Below are positions 8,890 to 62,980 of a stretch of 64,000 nt of DNA, one piece after another. The notes beneath the pieces were generated by a model that was given only the letters and a program-made list of their open reading frames with translations, made no database searches and had not been told where the DNA came from. Position 1 is the stretch's first letter. Each line of letters begins with the position of its first letter. This stretch comes from Streptomyces erythrochromogenes. Its GTDB lineage: Bacteria; Actinomycetota; Actinomycetes; Streptomycetales; Streptomycetaceae. The DNA lies in contig NZ_CP108036.1 of the NCBI RefSeq assembly GCF_036170895.1, positions 1,302,001 to 1,366,000 of the forward strand. The letters are read 5' to 3'. The position numbers were made by a program, and so were the translations under genes.

Positions 8890-10110
8890 TCATCGTTGTC
8901 GGGTCAAGGCCGCGGCCGCGTTGAAGCCGCCGTGTCCCCGGGCCAGCACGAGCGCGGCGGACACCGGTACGTGGCGGGGGGCGCTGACCAGGTCGATGCC
9001 GTACTCGGCGACCGGGCGGCGCACGTTGGCCGTCGGCGGGATCACCCCGTCCCGGATGGACAGCACGGCCGTCGCCAGGTCCAGTGCCGCCCCGCCGGCG
9101 CCGAGCCGTCCGGTCATCGTCTTGGGCGCGGTCACGGGGACGCCCTGCGGGCCGAAGAGCTCGCGGACGGCCTGTGCCTCGGCGCGGTCCAGGTCGGGGA
9201 CGCCCGCGGCGTCGGCGAACACCACGTCGATGTCGCCCGGTTCCAGTCCCGCCTCGTCGAGGGCGAGTTCGGCGGCCCGCCGCAGGGTGGACGGGCGGCC
9301 GCTGCCGGGCGCCGGGTCGAAGGTGGACGCCTGGCCGGCGATCTCCGCGTACCAGGACCGCACGCCCCGGGCGCGTGCCGACTCCGGGGTCTCCAGGACG
9401 AACAGCGCGCCGCCCTCGCCCGGTACGTGGCCGGCGGCGTCCTGGTCGAAGGGCAGGTACGCCCGCTCGGGATCGTCGGCGGTGCTGATGCGGCCGCCGG
9501 CCAGCTGGGCGACCCAGCCCCAGGGCGAGGGGGAGCCGTCGACGCCGCCGGCGATCACCATCGGGACGCCGTCGCGCAGTTGGCGGCGGGCCTTGGCCAG
9601 GGCGTCCAGGCCGCCGGCCTGTTCGGTGACGACCACGCCGCCCGGGCCGCGCAGGCCGTGCCGGATGGAGATCTGGCCGGTGTTGACGGCGTAGAACCAG
9701 GCGAAGGACTGGTAGGCGCTGACGTGCTCCGGTCCCTTGCTCCAGAGGTTGTGCAGTTCCCGGTGGCCGAAGGCGAACCCGCCGGCCGAACTGGCCGTGA
9801 CCACGCCCACGCCGTACTCGGGCATCGCCGCGAGGTCCACCCCGGCGTCCTTGATCGCCCATTCGGCGGCGACCAGGGACAGCCGGGTCATGTGGTCGGT
9901 CTGCGGCAGCAGCCGGCTGGGGATGCCGTGTTCGCGCGGATCGAAGCCGGCGATCTCGCCGGCCAGCCGGCTCGGGTAGCGCTCGGCGTCGAAGTGGCTG
10001 ATCCGGCCGATCGCGGCCCGTCCGGCCAGCGTGCGGCTCCAGTGGGACTCCGCGCCCAGGCCGGTCGGCGCGATCACGCCCATGCCCGTGATCACAGCGG
10101 TGGAGGTCAT
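8890..10110 (-). CDS. Type II PKS ketosynthase beta / chain length factor
   Basis: A 406-residue KS-beta. The active-site Cys is replaced by Gln164 ([11 protein letters not shown]), which is diagnostic of the chain length factor. In the minimal PKS it pairs with KS-alpha, decarboxylates malonyl-ACP and shapes the tunnel that sets chain length. The start overlaps the KS-alpha stop in an ATGA (10107-10110), so the two subunits are coupled for equal synthesis. The ACP that normally follows is absent here and lies at 24960-25217. Chain length is inferred to be C20 or C21 from the anthracycline-type cyclases. Confidence 0.96.
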
Positions 10111-11387
10111 GACGCCGCCCTCTCCGGGCTGCGCAGCACCATGGCGCTCTGGAAGCCGCCGAAGCCGCTGCCCACGGTCAGTACGGTGTCCACGGGCTGT
10201 CGGCGCGCGGTCAACGGCACGTAGTCCAGGTCGCATTCGGGGTCTGGCTCGTGCAGGTTGGCGGTGGGCGGAATGGTGTCGTGCTCGATGGTGAGGGCGC
10301 AGGCCGCGATCTCCAGCGAGCCGATCGCCCCCAGCGAGTGGCCGATCATCGATTTGATGCCGCTGACGGGCACCCGGTAGGCGTCCTCGCCCAGCGCCCT
10401 CTTGAAGGCCGCCGTCTCGTGCCGGTCGTTCTGGAGGGTGCCCGAGCCGTGCGCGTTGACGTAGTCGATGTCCCCCGGGGCGACCCCGGCCCGCAGCATC
10501 GCCACGCGGATCGCCTCGGCCATCTCCCGTCCGTCCGGGCGCAGTCCGGTCATGTGGAAGGCGTTGGAGCGGGAGGCGAAGCCGCTGATCTCGGCGTACA
10601 CGTACGCGCCGCGCCGGCGGGCGTGCTCGGCGTCCTCCAGGACGAAGACCGCGGCGCCCTCGCCGAGGACGAAGCCGTTCCTGGTCCGGTCGAAGGGCCG
10701 TGAGGCCAGGCCGGGTTCGTCGTTGCGCGGTGTGGTCGCCTTGATCGCGTCGAAGCAGGCCACGGTGATGGGCGAGATCGGGGCGTCGGTGGCGCCGGCC
10801 ACCATGACGTCCACCGTGCCCTCCCGGATCAGCTCCACCGCGTGCCCGACCGAGTCCAGTCCGGAGGTGCAGCCGGTCGAGATGAGCGACACGGGTCCTT
10901 CGGCGCCGACGTCGCGGGCGACCTCGGCCGCGATCGAGTGCGGCACGAAGTAGTCGAAGAGGTGGCGTCCGGCGTAGGAGGCGTCCACGTTCCAGTGGCG
11001 GCCGCCGTCGCTGACGACGGAGTACTCGTCCTCCAGGCTCATGGTGCAGCCGACGGCGCTGCCGATGGCGACACCGGTGCGCGCGGGGTCGAGCCCCGCG
11101 GGGTCCAGCCCGCTGTCGGCGACGCCCTCGCGGGCGCTCACCACGGCGAACTGCGCGGCCCGGTCCATCCGCCGGACCTGCTGCGGGGTCAGTCCCTCGC
11201 CCAGCGGGTCGAAGTCGACCTCGGCGGCGATCTGCGAGCGGTAGGGGCCGGGGTCGAAGAAGGTGATCCTCCTGGTGGCGGTGCGCCCGGCGGTCAGGGC
11301 GTCCCAGAAGGGCTTGCGCCCCACGGCTCCCGGGGCGACGACCCCGATGCCGGTGATGACGACGCGGCGGCCCGTGGAGGCGTCCAT
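10107..11387 (-). CDS. Type II PKS ketosynthase alpha
   Basis: A 426-residue condensing enzyme with a complete catalytic set: Cys173 (STGCTSG), His313 (NAHGSGT) and His350 (IGHSLGA). It extends the poly-beta-keto chain from malonyl-ACP together with KS-beta. The ATG forms a TGATG overlap with the monooxygenase stop codon. No DpsC/DpsD-like starter-unit KSIII or acyltransferase is seen in the window, so an acetate starter is possible, but those genes could lie to the left. Confidence 0.97.
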
Positions 11388-53344: not shown

Positions 53345-53725
53345 TCAGCAGCCGGGGATGCCGGGGGCCGGGTCGGCGCCCACGTTGACGTTGCCGCCCC
53401 ACATCCACACGTTGCTGTAGATGTGGCCGATGTCGTAGTCGATGACGGTGCCGAAGTACCAGACGTCCGTGGTGTATCCGCCCGCGGTGACGCGTTGACC
53501 GCGGGTGTAGCACGCGACGCCGGCCTCGGTCACCTTCGTCGTGGTGCCCCAGATCCGGCTGTTGGTCCTGGGGGCGTCACGCAGATTGCTGTGGGCCTGC
53601 ACCGTCGCCGCGTAGCCGCTGGTGCCGGAAGGTGCGGCCTCGGCGGCCCCGGCGGTGCCGAGCAGGGAGAGGGCCGCGCCGAGCGCGAGCCCTGTCGCCG
53701 CAAACCTCGTGGATCGCTTCGCCAT
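53345..53725 (-). CDS. Secreted SH3-like protein with C-terminal Cys
   Basis: A 126-residue exported protein with a Sec signal peptide (about 1-30, ending AAEAA). The mature part is one small beta-rich module: SNLRDAP, CYTRGQRVTAGGYTTDVWYFG, HIYSNVWMWGGN, and the final GIPGC. It shares the pattern NxR, Cys-x-x-x-Gly, Tyr-x-x-x-Trp and terminal Cys with the five related proteins at 53829, 59123, 60058, 60813 and 61315. The two Cys probably form a disulfide. ATG at 53725 is preferred to 53743. Likely cell-wall binding; role unknown. Confidence 0.78.
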   Translation of the reverse strand: MAKRSTRFAATGLALGAALSLLGTAGAAEAAPSGTSGYAATVQAHSNLRDAPRTNSRIWGTTTKVTEAGVACYTRGQRVTAGGYTTDVWYFGTVIDYDIGHIYSNVWMWGGNVNVGADPAPGIPGC

Positions 53726-53828
53726 TGTCTTCCCCTCTGTCATCAACGCTTGCTGTCCGGCTCTACGACGGAAGGGCCGGTACGTCCGTATGACCGTGCC
53801 GCGGGGCCGCCTTCACGGGTGTCTTCTG

Positions 53829-54281
53829 TCAGAACGTGCAGTCGCTGACGTGCGCCAGGTGCTCGTCCCCCGTGATGTACACGTTGTTGACCCAGCCCCA
53901 CGGTCCGCTCGGTGACTTCACGTACGTCCACCACCGGCTGCTGTAACCCGAGTCGCTGATGAGCTCTCCCTGCTTCTGGCAGTAGGCGGTCACGGTGGTC
54001 CGGGACACTGTCGCCACGGCGTGGCAGTTCTGCCGGGAGGGAAAGGTCTTGCACGTTTCGAAGGGGATTCCCGAGTCGGCGTTGCGGACGTTGACTCCGG
54101 TCGCCCACACGTGGACCTCCGTGAAGTCCATCGCCGCGGCATCGGCCACGGCGGGCCGCAGGGTCGCCGTCGGCTGCCCGGTCGCCGACGCGGTCGCGGT
54201 CGCGGGAACGGCCAGCGCCGCGGCGGCGACGAGGAGGGCCGTGGTCAGCCCTCGGAGCGTGCGCGGTGACGTGTTCGTCAT
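53829..54281 (-). CDS. Secreted SH3-like protein with C-terminal Cys
   Basis: A 150-residue exported protein with a signal peptide (1 to about 32, ATATASA). It has the same module as the neighbouring gene: GVNVRNADS, AYCQKQGELISDSGYSSRWWTYV, WVNNVYITGDE, ending VSDCTF. A Cys-x6-Cys insertion (CKTFPSRQNC) in the first loop is unique in this group. It is 103 bp from the gene at 53345 and on the same strand, so they may be co-transcribed, downstream of the AfsR-type regulator gene. Confidence 0.77.
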   Translation of the reverse strand: MTNTSPRTLRGLTTALLVAAAALAVPATATASATGQPTATLRPAVADAAAMDFTEVHVWATGVNVRNADSGIPFETCKTFPSRQNCHAVATVSRTTVTAYCQKQGELISDSGYSSRWWTYVKSPSGPWGWVNNVYITGDEHLAHVSDCTF

Positions 54282-54411
54282 GGTGGAAGCCTCTTCCGGC
54301 AGTGGTCGCGGGCGGCGGGTACCGGCCCGTGCACACCGGCGACGGGGGGTGGCCGCCTCTCGTATGAGTGGCGGCGTGCCGGACCGAGTGCCTCGTCCCA
54401 CGGTGGCTGCC

Positions 54412-57400
54412 TCAGGGCCCCGGGAGCGCTTCGCGGGTGCCGAGCCGGCGGAAGACCTCGTGCGCCTCCTGCTCGAACTCGCGCGCCGTTGCGGTCCGGC
54501 CCTGGGCGAGTGCGGCGTGGGCCAGGTCCCGCAGGGTGCGCGCGCGCCACAGCGGCAGTTGCAGCTTGTCCCACAGTACGAGGGACTGTCGCAGGGTCTC
54601 GGTCGCCGTGTCCCAGTCGGACGCGGCGAGGTGCCACTCGCCCAAGGTGCGCAGGACGAGGGCTTCGCCGAACACGTCCTGACGCTTGCGGGTGATCTCC
54701 AGACACCGGTCGAGCCGCTGCCGGGGCTCGGTCGTCCGGCCCTGCCGGAACTCGACCTTGGCCAGCGACAGGCTCGCGTACATGACGCCGTAGGAGTCGT
54801 CCGTCTCCTCGAAGATGGCGAGGGACTGCCGCAGCAGGGCCTCCGCACCCGCCAGGTCACCCCGCGCCCGGTGGCACAGGCCCAGTGAGCGCAGGGCTAG
54901 GGCCTCGCCGTGCCGGTCCCGGGCGGTGACGTACAGGCGGTGGGCGCGGGAGATCGCCTCCCACGCCTCGTCGTCGCGGCCCTGCTCCCGGTGGACGAAC
55001 CCGATGCCGTACAGCACATGGGCCATGGACGCGATGTCCTCCGGCTCCCGGTACTGTTCCAGCGCCGAGGTCAGCAGGGCCAGCGCCTCGTCGAAGCGGG
55101 CCTGTTCGCGGCGGGCCGCGCCCATGCCGGCCCGCGCGCCCGCGCAGCCCGTGCGTACGGACCGCTCCTCGAACAGACGCAGCGCCAGGGCGAAGAACGC
55201 GTACGCCTCGTCGAAGCGGTCCTGCTCCAGGCGGAGTTGGCCCAGACCGTTCAGCAGCCAGGCCTCGCCCTCGACGTCCCCGCCCCGGCGTACCGCCGCC
55301 AGGGCCACGTCGTGGGAACGGGACCAGGCGTCGAACTGGTTGTAGAGGGCCACGGATGCGGCCATGAGGGTGGCGGCGAGTTCGCGGGCGGCGTCGAACA
55401 TTCCGTGGTCCGCGCAGTGGATGACGGCGGCCAGCAGACACGGCTGCTCGGCGGCGAACCACGCGGCTGGCTCGTCCGCCAGGTGGGCCGACGCCTCCGT
55501 CGGCGGGACCGGCTCGCCCGCTACCCGTGTCGGCCCGCCCGTAGCGGTGACGGGGAGGAGCCGTGAAGCGCCGCCCGGGCCGTGGGCCGCCGCGATGCGG
55601 GCCATGGCCAGCCAGCGGTCGACCAGTCTGCGGACCGCCGTCTCCCGTTCCTCCGGGGACTCGTCGGCCAAGCAGCGCTCCCGGGCGTACTCGCGCGCCA
55701 GGTCGTGGATCCGGTAGCGCGTCCTGCCCGTCTCGTCGGTGCCCACGACCTCCACGAAGTGGCAGTCGACGAGTTGTTCGACCACGTCCTCGGCGTCGTC
55801 CTCGCTCACGTCCAGGAGCGGCCCGGCGACCCACGCCGCGAAGTCGGGCAGATCCATCAGGGCCAGGCGGCGCAGGGCGCGCTGCTCCTGCTCGTCCAGG
55901 TCCGCGTAGCCCATTCCGAGGCTCGCGCGCACTTCCAGGTCGCCCGCCTGCAGTTCGTCCAGCCGACGGCGCTCGTCCCTCAGGCGCGACACGAGCCGTG
56001 CCGGTGTCCAGTGGGGGCGGGCGGCGAGACGGGCACCGGCGATGCGGACGGCGAGCGGAAGCCGACCGCACAGCGCGACGATCTCGGCGGCCCGGTCGGG
56101 ATCCAGCGCGGGCCGGGTCGGACCGGCCACGCGGGCCAGCAGGTCCAGTGCCTCGGTTTCGGACGGCACCCCCAGATCGAGGTGGGCGGCGCCCTCCAGC
56201 GCGACGAGCCGGCGGCGGGCGGTGATCAGCACGGCCGAGCCGCCGCCGGGCGGGAGCAGCGGGCGCAGCAGGGCCTCGCTGACAGCGTTGTCGAGGACGA
56301 GCAGGACCCGACGGCGCGCGATGTGCGTGCGGTACAGCCCGAGGAGGTCCTCCTCGTCGCGCGCCGGGGCCTCCGGGTCCACCCCGAGGGCACGCAGCAG
56401 TCTGGCCAGGGCGTCCGCGGTCCGTACCGGCTCGGAGTCCGAGGCACGCAGGTCCACGAAGAGCTGTCCGTCGGGGAAGAGCGCGGCGGTGCGATGGCCC
56501 ACGTGGACGGCCAGGGCGGTCTTGCCGGTGCCCGACCGGCCGGAGATCACCCCGATGCGCGGTGCGGTGCGCAGCGGGTCGCCCTCCCCGAGCAGGGCGG
56601 TCGCCCAGGCCGTCTGTGCCGTACGGCCCACGAAGTCAGCTGCATCGGGGGGAAGTTGGGTGGGCACCGGACGGCCGGTGCCGTCGTGGGACCGGTCGGC
56701 ACGGCGGGTTGCCGGCATGTCCTCGCCCGAGCGCGGGGGAGCCGCCGCGGGTGCGTGCACGTGTCTCTTCCCGGCGAGCGCGGCTCTTGGGGCGGCCGGC
56801 GGCCCCAGCACCGTCGTGTCCGCCCGGAGCAGGGCGTGGTGCAGCGCGCGCAGTTCCGGGCCGGGGTCCGCGCCCAGTTCCGTACGGAGCAGCCGGCGGC
56901 CCTCCTCGTAGCAGCGCAACGCGTCGGGCATCCGGCCGGCGCGGAACAGGGCGGTCATCAGCTGGCCGCGCGGGCGCTCCCTGAGGGGGTGGGCGGCGAC
57001 GTGGGCCACCAGTTCGGAGACGAGATCCGTACGACGGTCCAGGTCCAGTTCGGCAGAGAAGCGGAACTCCTGCGCCTCCAGCCGGAGTTCCCTCAGGCGC
57101 ATGGCCTCGACACGGGCGAAGGACTGACCGAGCCCTTCCAGGGCGTCCCGGCCGCGCCACAGGCGCGACGCCGCTTGCAGGGTCTCGACGGCCTCCTCGG
57201 CCCGCCCGTCGACGGCCGCCTTCCGGCCGGCCGCGAACGCCTTCTCGAAGCAGCGGGCGTCCACGGCGGCGGGCGGGAACTCGGCGACGTATCCCGGTGT
57301 GCGGGTACGGATGGCCTCCGCGCCCTGCGTACCGGCCAGGGCCCTGCGCAGTCCGGAGACGTGCGACGCGACGAGCGCCCGCGCGGTGGCGGGCGGCTCC

Positions 57401-57582
57401 TCTTCCCAGACCAGGTCGACGAGCCGCTCGACGGACAGCACCTCACCGAGATGCACGACGAGAGCCGCGAGTATCGCGGTCGGTTTGGCGCCGTTCAGCG
57501 CGATCCTGTGTCCCCCGCTCAACACCTCGACCGGACCCAGAAGGCAAAGGTCCACCACGTCCCCCGATTTCACGTTCCGCAT
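54412..57582 (-). CDS. AfsR-type SARP regulator (BTAD-NB-ARC-TPR)
   Basis: A 1056-residue cytoplasmic regulator. The N-terminal winged helix (about 8-100: LCLLGPVEVLSGG, GAKPTAILAALVVHLGEVLSVERLVDLVW) is followed by the BTAD helical domain to about 255. The NB-ARC ATPase has Walker A GRSGTGKTA (about 352) and an IHDLAREYA segment in the MHD position. A TPR array fills the last 300 residues. Members such as AfsR bind 11-bp-periodic heptads as direct repeats. Four such heptads lie immediately upstream (57713-57752). It is the only full-length SARP in the window. Position and operator suggest it controls the cell-wall island and its own gene, not the anthracycline genes. Confidence 0.9.
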   Translation of the reverse strand: MRNVKSGDVVDLCLLGPVEVLSGGHRIALNGAKPTAILAALVVHLGEVLSVERLVDLVWEEEPPATARALVASHVSGLRRALAGTQGAEAIRTRTPGYVAEFPPAAVDARCFEKAFAAGRKAAVDGRAEEAVETLQAASRLWRGRDALEGLGQSFARVEAMRLRELRLEAQEFRFSAELDLDRRTDLVSELVAHVAAHPLRERPRGQLMTALFRAGRMPDALRCYEEGRRLLRTELGADPGPELRALHHALLRADTTVLGPPAAPRAALAGKRHVHAPAAAPPRSGEDMPATRRADRSHDGTGRPVPTQLPPDAADFVGRTAQTAWATALLGEGDPLRTAPRIGVISGRSGTGKTALAVHVGHRTAALFPDGQLFVDLRASDSEPVRTADALARLLRALGVDPEAPARDEEDLLGLYRTHIARRRVLLVLDNAVSEALLRPLLPPGGGSAVLITARRRLVALEGAAHLDLGVPSETEALDLLARVAGPTRPALDPDRAAEIVALCGRLPLAVRIAGARLAARPHWTPARLVSRLRDERRRLDELQAGDLEVRASLGMGYADLDEQEQRALRRLALMDLPDFAAWVAGPLLDVSEDDAEDVVEQLVDCHFVEVVGTDETGRTRYRIHDLAREYARERCLADESPEERETAVRRLVDRWLAMARIAAAHGPGGASRLLPVTATGGPTRVAGEPVPPTEASAHLADEPAAWFAAEQPCLLAAVIHCADHGMFDAARELAATLMAASVALYNQFDAWSRSHDVALAAVRRGGDVEGEAWLLNGLGQLRLEQDRFDEAYAFFALALRLFEERSVRTGCAGARAGMGAARREQARFDEALALLTSALEQYREPEDIASMAHVLYGIGFVHREQGRDDEAWEAISRAHRLYVTARDRHGEALALRSLGLCHRARGDLAGAEALLRQSLAIFEETDDSYGVMYASLSLAKVEFRQGRTTEPRQRLDRCLEITRKRQDVFGEALVLRTLGEWHLAASDWDTATETLRQSLVLWDKLQLPLWRARTLRDLAHAALAQGRTATAREFEQEAHEVFRRLGTREALPGP

Positions 57583-57610
57583 TCGGGGACAACGTGTCGG
57601 CCCCCACTGA

Positions 57611-57627
57611 GGTGCACGCCCTGCACC
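57611..57627. promoter_or_regulatory. GGTGCA inverted repeat upstream of SARP gene
   Basis: GGTGCA (57611-57616) and TGCACC (57622-57627) form a perfect inverted repeat with a 5-bp spacer, 28 bp upstream of the regulator's ATG. It shares the TGCA core with the heptad array 90 bp away. Confidence 0.45.
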
Positions 57628-57712
57628 GGACCTCCGGTTTCACTGTTGGCGGATGTGGCGTAGGGGTGGCCGAAACCCCTCAGGTCTGCCCATGCGGGTG
57701 GCCCGTTCCCGG

Positions 57713-57752
57713 CGTTGCATGCGTTCTGCAGAGGATCTGCATCGATCCTGCA
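57713..57752. promoter_or_regulatory. Four-heptad SARP-type operator
   Basis: CGTTGCA (57713), TTCTGCA (57724), ATCTGCA (57735) and TCCTGCA (57746) follow each other with exactly 4 bp between, an 11-bp period. The last heptad ends 17 bp before the GTG of the VanX-like gene. The array lies between that gene and the divergent AfsR-type regulator. Direct repeats with this period are the known binding pattern of SARP proteins. Confidence 0.75.
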
Positions 57753-57769
57753 GCGCCCGCCTCGACGCT

Positions 57770-58441
57770 GTGAGCGTGACGGACATCATCCTGCTTTCGG
57801 ACCCCCGGGTCGCCGCCACGCATGTCACCGACAACGGTGAACCCCTGGTCGACGCCCGGGAGTTCGCCGCGCTGCGGGTCGACACGCGGAAGACCGACCA
57901 CGACGGCTCGTACGCCCATCTGCGGGCCGACGTGCTGCGCCGGCTCCTGCTCGCACAGGAAGCGCTGCCTGCCGGCATCCGCCTGCTGATGGTGGAGGGC
58001 TTCCGGCCGCCCGCCCTGCAGCGCCGCTACTTCGACGAGTACGCGGCGACGCTGCGCACGGCGCATCCGGACGCCGGACCGGACCGCATCCGCGAGCTGG
58101 CCAGCGCGTACATCTCACCCCCGGAGGTCGCCCCGCACGTCAGCGGCGGTGCCGTGGATCTGACGCTGTGCACCGAGGACGGTGCCGAACTGTCCCTCGG
58201 TACGGAGGTCAACGCCACCCCCGAGGAGAGCGAGGGCGGCTGCCGCACCGCCGCGCTCAACGTCGGCTCCCGCGCCCGCGCCAACCGGGCGGCGATGGGC
58301 CGGGCCATGGCGGCCGCGGGGTTCGTCAACTACCCGACCGAGTGGTGGCACTGGTCGTACGGGGACCGGTACTGGGCGCTCCTGACCCAAGCGCCGGCGG
58401 CCAAGTACGGTCCCGCCTCCCTGCGCCCGACCACAGCCTGA
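57770..58441 (+). CDS. VanX-like D-Ala-D-Ala dipeptidase
   Basis: A 223-residue zinc peptidase of family M15D. The zinc ligands His123, Asp130 (SGGAVD) and His194, and the catalytic Glu191 (EWWHW), match VanX His116, Asp123, His184 and Glu181. It hydrolyses D-Ala-D-Ala dipeptides. No signal peptide is visible, so it should act in the cytoplasm. GTG at 57770 has no ribosome site, and the operator ends 17 bp before it, so a leaderless mRNA is possible. An ATG at 57692 would put the operator inside the gene. No vanH/vanA genes accompany it, so glycopeptide resistance is unlikely; wall turnover fits better. Confidence 0.87.
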   Translation: MSVTDIILLSDPRVAATHVTDNGEPLVDAREFAALRVDTRKTDHDGSYAHLRADVLRRLLLAQEALPAGIRLLMVEGFRPPALQRRYFDEYAATLRTAHPDAGPDRIRELASAYISPPEVAPHVSGGAVDLTLCTEDGAELSLGTEVNATPEESEGGCRTAALNVGSRARANRAAMGRAMAAAGFVNYPTEWWHWSYGDRYWALLTQAPAAKYGPASLRPTTA

Positions 58442-58466
58442 ACCAGCCCGACCCCGGGGGGACACC

Positions 58467-59045
58467 GTGGAGAACACCTGCATCGCAACGACGACGACCA
58501 CGTCGGCCGAGGCCTCCGAGACCAGCAAGCCGAGCACGAGCCCGGCGGCCCTCACCGACCACATGACCGCCGCCGAGTTCGACGAGGCGTTCACCGCCGT
58601 GATGCCGAGGCTGCGGCGCCGGCTGCTGGCTCTGACCGGCAATCCGCACGACGCCGACGACCTGCTGCAGGAGACGTACCTGAGGCTCTCCCGCCGGGCA
58701 CGCGCCCACACCCTGACGCGTCAGCAGCAGCCGTACGCCTACACCTGCGCGGCCGCGCTGAACCTGCTGCGCGATCTGTGGCGGCACCCCTCGCGCCAGG
58801 AGCGCTGCACCGACCGGCTGCCGGAACGCGGCTGGGACGGCGGCTTCGCCGGCAGGGAGGCCGAGGCGGTGACGGCAGCGCTGCTGCGCGGGCTGTCCCC
58901 CAAGGAAGCGGCGGCCGTGATCCTGGTCGACATCGAGGGCCTGACCCATGACATGGCGGGGGAACGGCTCGGCGCACACCGCGGCACGGTGCAGCGCAAC
59001 CGTATGCGCGGCCTCGCCAAGATCCGCGCCGCGCTCGCCGCATAG
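58467..59045 (+). CDS. ECF-type RNA polymerase sigma factor
   Basis: A 192-residue sigma factor. The first 35 residues are rich in Thr and Ser. Region 2 is at about 40-105 (MPRLRRRLLALTGNPHDADDLLQETYLRLSRR) and region 4 at about 130-190 (GLSPKEAAAVILVDIEGLTHDMAGERLGAHRGTVQRNRMRGLAKIRAAL). GTG at 58467 follows GGGGGGAC. It lies 25 bp behind the VanX-like gene and before the secreted hydrolase genes. No anti-sigma factor is encoded nearby, so activity may be set by its transcription from the SARP-type operator. Confidence 0.85.
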   Translation: MENTCIATTTTTSAEASETSKPSTSPAALTDHMTAAEFDEAFTAVMPRLRRRLLALTGNPHDADDLLQETYLRLSRRARAHTLTRQQQPYAYTCAAALNLLRDLWRHPSRQERCTDRLPERGWDGGFAGREAEAVTAALLRGLSPKEAAAVILVDIEGLTHDMAGERLGAHRGTVQRNRMRGLAKIRAALAA

Positions 59046-59122
59046 GAACCGGCCGCCGCACCGGCCGCTGCCGACCCGTACAGCACCTGCACACATCGCA
59101 CCGACCACCCGAGGGGGAACCC

Positions 59123-59998
59123 ATGCACCGTGCCCACCGCACACTCGCGACGGCGGGAGGGCTGCTGCTCGCCACCGCGTTGACCTGTACCGGTACGGCG
59201 ACGGCCGCCGTACCGCCGGTCTCCTCGGCGGCCGCGGCCGCCGCCGACTGCCGTCCCCTGGCGGACGCGCCCGCCCAGGCGCAGGCGATCGTCAACGCGG
59301 CGTGCTCACAGATCGGGGTGCCGTACTCGTGGGGCGGCGGATCCGTCCACGGGCCGACGTACGGTCAGGACTATCCCGGCGGCGGCCCCGGCGCCCACGA
59401 CAGCCAGGTCAAGGGCTTCGACTGCTCGCACCTGGTGCAGTACGCGGCCTGGCAGGGAGCGGGCATCGCCCTGCCCGAGGGGACGTGGAACCAGGCCCGG
59501 TGGAACGGCGCCACCGCCCGGTTCACCCGCGCCCAGGGAACCGCTCCGCTGCAGCCGGGGGATCTGCTGCTGTGGGGGTCGGACCCGGCCAACCTCGGCA
59601 GCGTCCACCACATCGCCGTCTACCTCGGCAACGGCAGGATGGTCGAGGCCCGGGAGTCCGGCACGCTCGTGATGGTCAGCGACGTACGGCTGGACTCCCA
59701 GTACGCGGGCGCCCTGCGCATCGCCGGCACCCAGCAGCCGCCTGCGGGCACCAAGCGGTTCATGACCTGGGGCACCCATGTGGGCCTCCGTCCCGATCCC
59801 GGCACCCAGAAGCCTCCCGTGGCCCGGCTGCCCGGCCCCACGGCCGTGGACGTGCTCTGCCAGGCACACGGGGAGACGGTCACGGCCGAGGGCTACACCA
59901 ACGACGCCTGGTCGTACCTGCCCAAGTACAAGGCGTGGATCTCGAACATCTACATCAACGACCCGGCGGCCTGGCTGCCCGGGGTTCCCACCTGCTGA
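59123..59998 (+). CDS. Secreted NlpC/P60 peptidoglycan endopeptidase with SH3-like C-terminal module
   Basis: A 291-residue exported enzyme with a signal peptide to about residue 29. The NlpC/P60 domain (about 48-205) has catalytic Cys101 (GFDCSHLVQYAA) and His163 (VHHIAVYLG). Such enzymes cut the gamma-D-Glu-meso-DAP bond of stem peptides. The C-terminal module (about 212-291: TWGTHVGLRPDP, CQAHGETVTAEGYTNDAWSYLP, ending LPGVPTC) is shared with neighbouring proteins, especially the M23 protein next door. GAGGGGGAA precedes ATG 59123. Probably attacks or remodels cell wall outside the membrane. Confidence 0.9.
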   Translation: MHRAHRTLATAGGLLLATALTCTGTATAAVPPVSSAAAAAADCRPLADAPAQAQAIVNAACSQIGVPYSWGGGSVHGPTYGQDYPGGGPGAHDSQVKGFDCSHLVQYAAWQGAGIALPEGTWNQARWNGATARFTRAQGTAPLQPGDLLLWGSDPANLGSVHHIAVYLGNGRMVEARESGTLVMVSDVRLDSQYAGALRIAGTQQPPAGTKRFMTWGTHVGLRPDPGTQKPPVARLPGPTAVDVLCQAHGETVTAEGYTNDAWSYLPKYKAWISNIYINDPAAWLPGVPTC

Positions 59999-60020
59999 CC
60001 CACCGCTTCCTCACCGCCTC

Positions 60021-60043
60021 TCACATCGCTCACATCGCTCACA
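60021..60043 (+). repeat. Short 9-bp tandem repeat in leader
   Basis: TCACATCGC occurs twice in tandem, followed by TCACA (60021-60043), just before the GAGGAG ribosome site of the M23 peptidase gene. Its role is unknown. Confidence 0.5.
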
Positions 60044-60057
60044 GAGGAGACTCCGCC

Positions 60058-60819
60058 ATGCGCGCACTCAAGCGCACCAAGTCCATCGGCCTGCTCGTCG
60101 CCACGGTCGCCGCGGCCGGGCTGGTCCCGCTCACGGCCGGCCAGGCCGCCGCCGCGCCCGCCGGCTACGCCGGATCCTGCCCGACGGCCGGCACGGTGAC
60201 CCAGGGGTGGCACTCCGGCCACGACGGCGTCGACATCGCCAACAACCGTGGTACGCCGATCCACTCCGCCGGGCCCGGCACCGTCATCGTCTCCGGCACC
60301 GCCAGCGGCTACGGCCAGTGGATCCGCATCAAGCACGACGACGGCACCGTCACCGAGTACGGCCACATGTACGAGCGCCTCGTCTCCGTGAACCAGCGGG
60401 TGAGCAGCGGCCAGCTGATCGCACGCATGGGCTCCGAGGGCCAGTCCACCGGGCCGCACCTGCACTTCGAGGCGCACTCCTCCACGGCCAGCACCCGGGG
60501 CATGGACCCCGTCGCCTATCTGGCCGAGCGCGGTGTGAGCCTGCCGTGCACCCCGGGCAGCGGAACGCCCGGTACCAACTTCACCACCTGGGGCACATCG
60601 GTCCGGGTGCGCGCCGACGCCCGGCTGAACGCTGCGGTCGTGCGCACCCTGACCGGGCCGACTCCGGTCCAGGTCCAGTGCCAGAAGCGCGGCGACTCGG
60701 TCACCGCCGAGGGCTACACCAACGACGCCTGGTCCTACATCCCGGCGCTCGGCGGCTACATCTCCAACATCTACATCGACCACCCCGCCGCCTGGCTGCC
60801 GGGGGTGGGCACGTGCTGA
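60058..60819 (+). CDS. Secreted M23 peptidase with SH3-like C-terminal module
   Basis: A 253-residue exported metallopeptidase with a signal peptide to about residue 34. The LytM/M23 zinc site is complete: His55 and Asp59 (HDGVD), with His103, His134 and His136 (GPHLHFE). The C-terminal module (about 172-253) is nearly the same as in the NlpC/P60 protein (VTAEGYTNDAWSYIP, SNIYI, AAWLPGV), ending GTC. Such peptidases cut peptidoglycan cross-links. GAGGAG lies upstream of ATG 60058. Its 3' end overlaps the next gene by 7 bp. Confidence 0.9.
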   Translation: MRALKRTKSIGLLVATVAAAGLVPLTAGQAAAAPAGYAGSCPTAGTVTQGWHSGHDGVDIANNRGTPIHSAGPGTVIVSGTASGYGQWIRIKHDDGTVTEYGHMYERLVSVNQRVSSGQLIARMGSEGQSTGPHLHFEAHSSTASTRGMDPVAYLAERGVSLPCTPGSGTPGTNFTTWGTSVRVRADARLNAAVVRTLTGPTPVQVQCQKRGDSVTAEGYTNDAWSYIPALGGYISNIYIDHPAAWLPGVGTC

Positions 60820-61220
60820 CCGGCGCCCTCACCGGCAGGAAGGGTGCCGCGGCGGCGGCTCTGGCCGCCGCGCTGCTCCTCTCCCCCGGCCTCACCCCGT
60901 CCGCGCGGGCCGCCGACTCGGCGCCGTGCACCCCCGACCGCAACTACGCGGGTACGTTCCTGTGCCAGATATGGGGCTCGAACGTCAATCTGCGGTCCGC
61001 CCCCGATCCCCAGGCCCAGGTCACCTCCACGTCGCCCCCCGGTGGCGTCCTCAGGGTTCAGTGCCAGGTCAAGGGCGGCCGTGCGACCTACGGCGACTAC
61101 TGGCACACCTGGTGGGTCAAGACCCCGGCGGTGGGCATGGCCCCGTCCGCGTACATGAGCGAGATATTCCTCGTCGGAGGCGGCAACGACGAGCCGGACT
61201 CCGGTCTGCCGAACTGCTGA
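60813..61220 (+). CDS. Secreted stand-alone SH3-like protein
   Basis: A 135-residue exported protein with a signal peptide (about 1-33, PSARA). It consists only of the SH3-like module: NVNLRSAPD, CQVKGGRATYGDYWHTWWVK, MSEIFLVGGGN, ending SGLPNC. GTG at 60813 overlaps the M23 gene by 7 bp, so it is translationally coupled to that enzyme. Without a catalytic domain it may target, protect or inhibit. A strong terminator follows. Confidence 0.8.
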   Translation: MLTGALTGRKGAAAAALAAALLLSPGLTPSARAADSAPCTPDRNYAGTFLCQIWGSNVNLRSAPDPQAQVTSTSPPGGVLRVQCQVKGGRATYGDYWHTWWVKTPAVGMAPSAYMSEIFLVGGGNDEPDSGLPNC

Positions 61221-61239
61221 ACGGCGGCCCGCACCGACC

Positions 61240-61277
61240 GGATGCCCCCGGGACCACGGCAGGTCCCGGGGGCATCC
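61240..61277 (+). terminator. Strong terminator
   Basis: A perfect 16-bp stem (GGATGCCCCCGGGACC at 61240-61255 with 61262-61277) has a 6-nt loop, 19 bp after the stop codon of the stand-alone SH3-like protein. It ends the vanX-sigma-hydrolase transcript. Confidence 0.85.
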
Positions 61278-61314
61278 GCCTCCACTTCCCTCTCCACCCA
61301 TTCCGAGGACGAAC

Positions 61315-62520
61315 ATGATGACCTTGAGCAGCACACGGATCGCGGTGCGGGCGGGCGCGCTGACCGCCGCCCTCGCCGCGTTCCTGTGCACCACCGCGAC
61401 CGCGGTCTCCGTCGCCTCCGCCGAGTCCCCCTCTGCGCGTCCGGCGGCGGTTCAGGCCGACGTGCCCGCCGGGGTGACGGCGGGCGTCGCCGTCTTCGAC
61501 CGCCAGACCGGCACCTTCACCGAACAGCTGAACACCGCCACACAGTTCAGGTCCGCGTCGGTGGTGAAGCTGCTGATCGCCCTGGACGTGCTCTGGAACC
61601 GCAGCCCCGACGCCCTGCCGGCCGCCGACCGGGGCCGGATCGACACCATGCTGCGCGGCAGCGACGACACGGCCGCGAGCACGTTCTGGTCGAACAACGG
61701 CTCGGGGGCGATCGTCGACCGGATGGTCACCCGGCTCGGCCTGACGGACACCGCCCGGCCGCCGTCCACCCACCCCGGCTACTGGGGCTACACGGCCCTC
61801 TCGGCCCGCGACACCGTGAAGATCTACCGCCATCTGCTGGACTCCGCCCCGGCGGCGACACGCGACTACATCCTCGGCGACCTGCGGCAGTCCACCCGCT
61901 GCGCCACCGACGGCTACGACCAGCACTTCGGCATCGCCGGCTCCTTCAACCGCCCCTGGGCCGTCAAGCAGGGCTGGTCGGGCTTCAGTTCGGGCGGCTG
62001 CACGGCACCGACCGCGACGACCGCGAAGGCCGCCGGGGCCGCTGAGTCCGCCGGGGAACCGGCGGGAACGGATGCCCGGACGCCGGCGGGCGCCGACGCC
62101 GTGGACCTCTCCCGTCCCGCACTGCACACGACGGGTGTGGTGGGCGCGGGCGACCGTTCCATCGTGGCGGTCTTCACCCTGCACCCCGGCGGAACGCCCT
62201 ACGGCAAGGCCTACACGGACATCGGGCGGCTGACCCGTTCGCTGGACGTCCCCGGCGCCTCCCGCCCCGCCGGGACGTGGGTCGGCACCTGGGGCAGCGG
62301 GGTCCGGGTCCGCACCCAGGCGACGACCACCTCCGGCGCGATCACCACGCTGCCCGCCGGGGTCGAGGTCCTGGTCGGCTGCCAGAAGCGCGGGCAGCAG
62401 GTCAGCCAACCGCCCTACGTCAACGACTGGTGGGCCCAACTTCCCCAGTACGGCGGCTACATGACCAACATCTATCTCAGCGTGCCGGAGAACCAGGTAC
62501 CCGGGGTGCCGGTCTGCTGA
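61315..62520 (+). CDS. Secreted class-A beta-lactamase-like serine hydrolase with SH3-like C-terminal module
   Basis: A 401-residue exported protein with a signal peptide (to about 36). The catalytic domain (about 50-320) has the SxxK motif at Ser82-Lys85 (SVVK), an SNN triad (WSNNGS) and a KQG box (VKQGWSGF), the plan of class A beta-lactamases and DD-peptidases. An Ala/Gly/Thr-rich insertion of about 35 residues (TATTAKAAGAAESAGEPAG) follows the KQG region. The C-terminal module (about 322-401: GVRVRTQA, CQKRGQQV, YVNDWWAQLP, TNIYL, ending PGVPVC) is that of the island. It could hydrolyse beta-lactams or D-Ala-D-Ala bonds. Confidence 0.86.
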   Translation: MMTLSSTRIAVRAGALTAALAAFLCTTATAVSVASAESPSARPAAVQADVPAGVTAGVAVFDRQTGTFTEQLNTATQFRSASVVKLLIALDVLWNRSPDALPAADRGRIDTMLRGSDDTAASTFWSNNGSGAIVDRMVTRLGLTDTARPPSTHPGYWGYTALSARDTVKIYRHLLDSAPAATRDYILGDLRQSTRCATDGYDQHFGIAGSFNRPWAVKQGWSGFSSGGCTAPTATTAKAAGAAESAGEPAGTDARTPAGADAVDLSRPALHTTGVVGAGDRSIVAVFTLHPGGTPYGKAYTDIGRLTRSLDVPGASRPAGTWVGTWGSGVRVRTQATTTSGAITTLPAGVEVLVGCQKRGQQVSQPPYVNDWWAQLPQYGGYMTNIYLSVPENQVPGVPVC

Positions 62521-62608
62521 CCGGGCTGCGGGAGCGGCCCTCGGCTCATACGGCGAGTGCCGACCCGCCGTCGCGTTGCGAGACGACCTTCGAACAAGGA
62601 GAACTGCG

Positions 62609-62980
62609 ATGAACAAGCGTGCACTTGGCTCCCTGGCCGCGGCGGCGGCGATCACCGGCCTGCTGGGGGCGGCGCCGACGGCCTCGGCCGCAGAGGTTCC
62701 GCCGGGCTGCGACAAGGGCTACTTCTGCGTCTACTCGGGGGACTACGGGACGGGTCAGCTCGTCCTGAAGTCGGACGGCAACTGGTCGGGCAGCGTCACC
62801 GGCCGGTCCATCTTCAACAACGGCGCGCCCTTCCCCGGCCTCGACCACATCCAGGTCGAGTGGAAGGGCATCGGCCCCGGCACGGAGTGTGTCCACTACT
62901 ACCCCGGCCCGGGCGACTACGGCATCAACTTCAACCACAACGCCGTCATCACCAAGGTGACGTGGCGCGGAGAGTGCTAG
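62609..62980 (+). CDS. Secreted peptidase inhibitor family I36-like protein
   Basis: A 123-residue exported protein with a signal peptide ending in ASA (about 28). The mature domain has four Cys (PPGCDKGYFCVYSG, TECVHYY, final GEC) and the beta-gamma-crystallin-like pattern of the I36 family, whose founder is the Streptomyces metalloproteinase inhibitor SMPI. It may restrain the island's metallopeptidases or those of other organisms. AAGGAGA lies before the ATG. Its stop codon overlaps that of the transposase remnant on the other strand (CTAG). Confidence 0.8.
   Translation: MNKRALGSLAAAAAITGLLGAAPTASAAEVPPGCDKGYFCVYSGDYGTGQLVLKSDGNWSGSVTGRSIFNNGAPFPGLDHIQVEWKGIGPGTECVHYYPGPGDYGINFNHNAVITKVTWRGEC

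Follow-up and report, generated by a model that had tools for sequence, protein, structure and literature searches.

A candidate SARP- and sigma-factor-controlled locus of secreted Streptomyces proteins that share an SH3-like, predicted wall-binding module

The stretch of DNA analysed here (the window) comprises 64 kb (G000:C1:1302001-1366000) of an 8.6-Mb Streptomyces genome whose nearest named proteins belong to Streptomyces erythrochromogenes, and it contains a locus in which six secreted proteins share one small SH3-like module, next to genes for a large Streptomyces antibiotic regulatory protein (SARP), an extracytoplasmic function (ECF) sigma factor and an M15-family dipeptidase. We consider it rather probable that these genes form a switched regulon whose secreted products act on peptidoglycan, each of them bearing, or consisting of, one SH3-like wall-binding domain. 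Judged by sequence and a structural model, the module is a new and defined bacterial branch of a fold that binds cell walls in fungal muramidases, present in one locus in both enzyme-linked and enzyme-free versions.

The module family and its organisation

The six module genes named in an earlier, sequence-only reading of this DNA are all present, and the first 48 residues of each product include an A-x-A site and a run of hydrophobic residues, on a crude inspection made without a predictor. This is consistent with Sec signal peptides; that reading had proposed signal peptides for all six. Two of the genes, modA (53345..53725, − strand) and modB (53829..54281, − strand), encode module-only proteins that end in PGIPGC and SDCTF respectively, and lie with the SARP gene on the strand opposite to the others. 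ModB was assigned to the family by phmmer and alignment; its start was taken at 54281, and a longer frame in the open reading frame (ORF) list, to 54860, would begin within the SARP gene. The + strand carries, in order, the genes for the M15 dipeptidase, the ECF sigma factor, a secreted NlpC/P60 peptidase (59123..59998, C-terminal module at 59756-59995), a secreted M23 peptidase (60058..60819, C-terminal module at 60574-60816), the third secreted module-only protein, modC (60813..61220, module at 60936-61217), a secreted protein of the class A beta-lactamase/PBP-A fold (bla-module; 61315..62520, C-terminal module at 62275-62517) and a secreted peptidase-inhibitor-I36-like protein (62609..62980; Pfam PF03995, 23.7 bits with a cut-off of 21.1). 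The gaps between them are 25, 77, 59, −7, 94 and 88 nt, the negative value being the overlap of the modC start with the M23 gene.

A Pfam scan of the six proteins agrees with the earlier division into three modules on different enzymes and three alone: NlpC/P60 (54.6 bits, E 1.2e-14) and M23 (105 bits, E 2.4e-30) were found, together with a weak Beta-lactamase2 match (E 1.8e-5, 24.6 bits, cut-off 22), while modA matched no Pfam family at E-values as high as 1. The modules themselves are related to one another, since all-against-all phmmer of the six (filters off, E-values referring to the six-sequence set) gave E<=0.0014 in 28 of the 30 ordered pairs. The weakest pair, modA and modB (E 0.019 and 0.0076), is bridged by the M23 module, which each matches at about 1e-9 to 1e-10. 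Residues R13, C36, G40, Y48, W53 and C81 are conserved across the alignment of the six, much as the motifs picked out earlier had implied, and an origin of the modules from unrelated families was rejected on these two grounds. Membership of existing families was also rejected for the module: the best SH3_3 score among the six proteins is 23.0 bits against a Pfam gathering score of 27, and the best match to GsmA (NF038016), a wall hydrolase family whose model weakly resembles the module, is 25.9 bits against a curated cut-off of 240.

A profile built from the modules (A3) and run with hmmsearch against the PDB found the SH3-like cell-wall-binding domain (CWBD) of fungal muramidases first, as 8b2f (E 4.9e-8), 8b2g (2.7e-7), 8b2s (6.3e-7) and 8b2h (6.6e-5), followed from E 2.7e-4 by antibody entries that look like chance. 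The AlphaFold2 model of the M23 protein matches the same fold, with a structural alignment that ends at model residue 253 and at residue 72-73 of the CWBD chain. Both cysteines of the fungal Cys33-Cys72 pair are conserved in the modules as residues, C33 aligning with the module cysteine, and the C-terminal tail is probably pinned by a predicted disulfide. The A3 alignment has no conserved cysteine at the columns of the second fungal pair, Cys9-Cys53, and the module is thus placed beside the fungal subgroup, as a sister branch, and not within it. It resembles the fungal CWBD in sequence, fold and the Cys33-Cys72 residues, but differs in being bacterial, in standing at the C-terminus of the window's enzymes and in occurring also as stand-alone proteins.

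The fungal domain has been studied as a cell-wall-binding domain and crystallised with triglycine, as described in part of PMC10394673. In 217 modules (209 unique; E<1e-8, covering model positions 8-80), module position 12 is basic in every unique sequence (R in 146, H in 55 and K in 8). SH3 folds bind many ligands, and the module might instead hold a protein or another surface polymer, which we regard as unlikely because it is fused to several types of peptidoglycan enzyme and because its closest relative in sequence and fold is a domain crystallised with triglycine.

The enzymes and the dipeptidase

The NlpC/P60 protein has C101 and H162/H163. The catalytic domain of the M23 protein is closest, among solved structures, to StM23 (9gy1, 52% identity), whose 144-residue chain aligns to the catalytic part only; StM23 is named in none of the ten papers listed by a search of the open-licence literature. 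In the order of its domains, M23 followed by an SH3 fold, the protein has the layout of lysostaphin (4lxc), likewise a secreted M23 peptidase with a C-terminal SH3 domain, and Foldseek aligns both domains; any bacteriolysis by the window's protein would be a prediction by analogy. The module differs from that of lysostaphin in its database matches: the fungal CWBD ranks first for its profile, and the 60 PDB matches listed do not include lysostaphin.

The bla-module protein has a class A fold with SxxK, SDD in place of SDN, and KxG, and is likened to PBP-A (2j9o), with no match at E<=0.01 in a PDB sequence search. Class A beta-lactamases use Glu166 as general base. Across 42 sequences, no Glu between S116 and K218 is conserved throughout or almost throughout, and the protein differs from class A beta-lactamases and PBP-A in this residue and in its C-terminal wall module.

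The M15 protein (57770..58441, + strand) is VanX-like: Pfam M15 scores 55.3 bits against a gathering score of 27 (on a longer ORF from 57653), the VanX-type D-Ala-D-Ala dipeptidase 1r44 is matched at E 9.6e-8, and the active-site motifs HVSGGAVD and EWWH are shared with it. The VanX equivalog of NCBIfam scores 35.4 bits with a cut-off of 320, and no VanH- or VanA-like protein was found among the ten neighbours scanned. No signal peptide was seen on inspection of its sequence. Assignment to VanX proper and to class A beta-lactamases was rejected, on the score and on the missing Glu respectively. ARAGORN calls a 93-nt tRNA-Glu(ctc) at 58170-58262 (− strand), antisense within the M15 coding region, which is probably a false positive.

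Regulatory genes and promoter-like motifs

The SARP, the ECF sigma factor and the M15 dipeptidase form a regulatory core that had no place in the sequence-only reading. The SARP (54412..57582, − strand; 1056 aa; BTAD 132.8 bits, NB-ARC and TPR in Pfam) has the architecture of the large SARPs, defined in PMC10972967 as a SARP DNA-binding domain with BTAD, NB-ARC and TPR in about 1000 aa. The sigma factor (58467..59045, + strand) matches Sigma70 r2 and r4_2 and scores 46.0 bits against TIGR02937 (cut-off 42.9). SARP operators are described, in parts of PMC10972967 and PMC5930380, as heptameric direct repeats with an 11-bp period, and AfsR, in the same part of PMC10972967, as activating the adjacent sigma-like gene afsS. 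The window's SARP resembles AfsR-AfsS and the large SARPs in its architecture and in apparent 11-bp repeat operators, which are known here as sequence, and differs in its presumed wall-hydrolase targets and in the sigma-type motif that lies before the SARP gene itself in many relatives.

The 187-nt gap between the SARP and M15 genes contains four TGCA repeats with an 11-bp period (57715..57753, + strand), a direct repeat at the presumed target promoter and a candidate SARP operator. The pattern CTGCA-N6-CTGCA-N6-CTGCA occurs at this one locus in the whole 8.6-Mb genome even with one mismatch (backwards control, two matches). Runs of at least three TGCA stand before 25 of 34 M15 genes in loci with the ECF gene, compared with 1/458 and 0/872 other genes, and before the M15 gene in 14 of the 18 listed core loci (defined below), which are not the loci that first drew attention to the repeat; genes with less than 150 nt of upstream sequence were skipped. 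For 4 of 33 SARP genes the gap to M15 is short enough that the same run also lies before SARP, and in the subgroup of the window, with its short SARP-M15 gap, the repeats may drive both directions. The SARP probably drives the sigma operon.

A second motif, TCATACG-N16-CGTC, was first noticed before modA (53767..53793, − strand, 68 nt upstream) and modB (54341..54367, − strand, 86 nt upstream). The genome has six such sites and the backwards control none. Four of the six lie 63-89 nt before modA, modB, the I36 gene (62546..62572, + strand, 63 nt upstream) and a further module-only gene, unlinked, at 241945, for which we chose Met45 of the frame as called, at 241810, as the start; the other two lie within what we take to be rnpA and antisense to the end of a presumed aroK.

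Within 500 nt upstream of genes in the 38 loci counted as carrying the ECF gene (two of which, L057 and L058 in the window's own genome, were so counted with the ECF gene outside them; genes with less than 200 nt upstream were skipped), the motif precedes 23 of 33 SARP, 15 of 41 module-only, 2 of 3 I36, 7 of 69 module-enzyme and 8 of 457 other genes, and none of 34 M15 and 36 ECF genes. In 61 loci lacking the ECF gene it precedes 0/4 SARP, 0/14 module-only, 0/50 module-enzyme, 0/2 M15 and 0/869 other genes. By spacer length, expanded loci gave 37 matches at 16 nt and 3 at other lengths (8 to 26 tried), the 19 core loci, which were not used to derive the motif, gave 21 and 0 (18 other spacers), and the 61 ECF-negative loci (1.15 Mb) gave 0 and 5. 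In the core loci the motif stands before 14 of 18 SARP-labelled genes and, in five, before a divergent lipoprotein-like gene. Genomes with the ECF ortholog hold a mean of 4.3 exact sites (nine genomes) and the 141 others 2.1 (Mann-Whitney p 1e-4, uncorrected for kinship).

These patterns suggest that the sigma factor probably drives the module-only and I36 genes here and probably drives the SARP gene in many relatives, which would close a positive loop. Several observations weigh against this assignment. Of 150 genus genomes, 128 contain the exact motif at least once; those without the ECF gene have a median of 2 sites and a maximum of 8. The motif is also rare before module-enzyme genes, as tallied above. 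Six of the 38 ECF-positive loci lack an exact copy, as do the window's own SARP and bla-module genes, so that only relatives show the feedback arm. The loci tallied by ECF status are also unequal and related, and the motif was derived on part of them.

The divergent lipoprotein-like genes beside the SARP gene (L103:3267-4184, L122:3031-4086, L124:3389-4444, L129:3560-4495 and L133:3274-4209), each with its own motif, make up as many as five of the eight matches to "other" genes; the one from L103, the only one scanned, had no Pfam match.

Distribution and conservation

At E<=1e-3 the module is matched 11 times in the window's genome, six of these within 9.2 kb, and chance clustering is therefore not credible. 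Nine are listed: the six described here, two equal-scoring NlpC/P60-type proteins near both ends of the 8.5-Mb contig, and the module-only protein at 241945. A six-row profile found matches at E<=1e-3 in 136 of 150 genus genomes, many of the best being weak (E 1e-6 to 1e-9). In a phylum-level sample, 13 of 296 genomes had matches at E<=1e-6, and all those above 50 bits fell in the same genus. The protein database also contains a few module proteins outside this genus, for example in Kribbella and Kitasatospora, and every one of the 75 modA homologues (E<=1e-5) that has an organism name is from Streptomyces.

Relatives were drawn from the best 80 of 98, giving 79 loci, with genes called by our own caller based on third-position G+C content (GC3), which places some starts, notably of SARP genes, too far downstream; L064, which repeats the G082 region also represented by L039, was left out of tallies and trees. 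The block with the M23-module gene is present in G000, G082, G017 and L059-L073; it thus recurs in relatives, the linkage that the earlier reading had asked about. Within these fifteen L-numbered loci the bla-module gene is missing from L069 and L071 and the module-only content varies. Nineteen further (core) loci have the ECF gene and an NlpC protein with two modules, with SARP and M15 genes also called in 16; the loci outside both sets lack the ECF gene. A tree of M15 and sigma proteins places the 18 usable core loci in one clade (support 0.996), apart from 17 expanded loci. Among the 150 genus genomes, an ECF ortholog (256 bits or more) is present in nine, and three more score 99-114 bits. 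An NlpC-module match is adjacent in all nine and M15 in eight, the exception being G080, in which M15 is not matched at 1e-30. On its own, M15 is more widespread, at 63 of 150 with the same threshold.

As the sequence-only reading had supposed, the module is carried by several types of wall enzyme, here and elsewhere: NlpC/P60, M23, Amidase_2 and cutinase with NlpC. Other carriers include a second M23 set (checked with Pfam in L041 and L043), an Amidase_2 protein (L045:8147) and NlpC/P60 proteins with two or three module copies. A tree of 133 modules from selected loci (83 columns; 52 of 130 inner branches well supported) groups modules by enzyme type across species, with 14 label changes against a shuffled mean of 97.8. 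Recent homogenisation within the array was rejected on this grouping, many forks being unresolved at 83 columns. The genes might be neighbours merely as tandem copies with no joint function, as several paralogous modules so close together could suggest, yet the same grouping indicates an old array that has been kept, and motifs are shared on both strands and at an unlinked gene; we hold this explanation to be very improbable.

Proposed mechanism and biological role

In the mechanism we propose, the module would dock the enzymes on peptidoglycan peptide bridges, its basic residue standing where fungal Arg10 holds triglycine. The NlpC/P60 and M23 enzymes would then cut stem and bridge peptides, and the PBP-A-like serine enzyme would trim D-Ala, while the VanX-like enzyme, probably cytoplasmic, would remove D-Ala-D-Ala from recycled wall or so as to alter new wall. 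Module-only proteins would occupy these same sites but cut nothing, and may restrict the hydrolases or keep them apart. By description they are like the free SH3 protein beside the lysis genes of the T1-like phage KanT1 (part of PMC13164509), which belongs to a different, phage context. The SARP would bind the 11-bp repeats and activate M15-sigma-NlpC, with read-through activating M23-modC-bla as well. The sigma factor would recognise TCATACG-N16-CGTC upstream of the module-only genes and the I36 gene, and in many relatives also upstream of the SARP gene, giving positive feedback. The I36-like product perhaps shields the secreted enzymes from proteases.

The sequence-only reading spoke of a coordinated extracellular wall-acting system. 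The shared promoter-like motifs make the coordination likely; the wall-acting part, by binding and lysis of peptidoglycan, we infer from the domains. The fuller picture, a mutually activating switch of the large SARP with the ECF sigma factor over SH3-targeted hydrolases, with free modules as competitive occupants that set where and to what extent these cut, we put forward tentatively. Such a circuit would place peptidoglycan hydrolases, together with a D-Ala-D-Ala dipeptidase, under a SARP-sigma feedback loop, and if it is true, SARP regulation would extend from antibiotics to the cell wall. We know of no earlier regulon in which a SARP is dedicated to enzymes of peptidoglycan and not to secondary metabolites. 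In searches of the open-licence literature, the titles and abstract starts listed described nothing like the locus, and the dipeptidase-sigma-NlpC combination gave one paper, on Lactobacillus, with no SARP. The locus makes the restraint of hydrolases by free binding modules directly testable.

What the cutting is for is less settled. We slightly favour, at somewhat under even chances, remodelling or turnover of the organism's own wall in development, with wall cutting turned on by the SARP and sigma factor late in growth and D-Ala recycled by the dipeptidase. The presence, in the same operon of the conserved core, of an M15 dipeptidase with no signal peptide is consistent with this, as is the resemblance of the module to GsmA, a sporangiospore-maturation hydrolase family, although that match is far under its cut-off. 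Searches of the open-licence literature on GsmA gave no paper that contained all the terms together. An ECF ortholog in only nine of 150 Streptomyces genomes implies, on the other hand, that a normal life cycle does not depend on the core. The enzymes might otherwise be secreted against competing bacteria, as lysostaphin is, with the M15 and module-only proteins as self-protection; this is a plausible but less favoured reading, to which the lysostaphin-type layout, the variation in gene content between strains and a cutinase-NlpC/P60 fusion with four modules in L088 all lend weight. A cutinase is an odd enzyme in this relative, an organism not known to have mycolates. The conserved core, namely one module enzyme, a dipeptidase lacking a signal peptide and regulators, fits own-wall use equally.

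Other module-linked genes

The fusion in L088 (844-3303) is one of several NlpC-module-like proteins of 800-826 aa with four modules, the others being in L089, L093, L095, L099 and L101; it alone was scanned, giving Pfam cutinase and NlpC/P60. Secreted proteins of about 430 aa (A4; for example L041:10065-11342) end in the module and often lie beside the M23-module gene. Their N-terminal part, labelled DPBB for an apparent motif resemblance, had no Pfam match in the five scanned, and outside the module there was no convincing PDB sequence match, with three weak rows at E 0.4-1. Near a contig end of the window's genome, an NlpC-module gene is followed by one for a secreted protein of about 127 aa ending in PGLREC (L057:8824-9207 and 9283-10158), and the pair recurs in L097, L104, L109, L114, L117-L119, L130 and L131; the PGLREC protein, which may be a divergent module, aligns with modA proteins but is absent among the modA-profile matches listed. 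An nSTAND1-WD40 protein of about 1290 aa, checked with Pfam, lies beside the NlpC-module gene in L105 (5118-8978) and L098 (11147-15025), and neighbours of similar length occupy this position in other loci.

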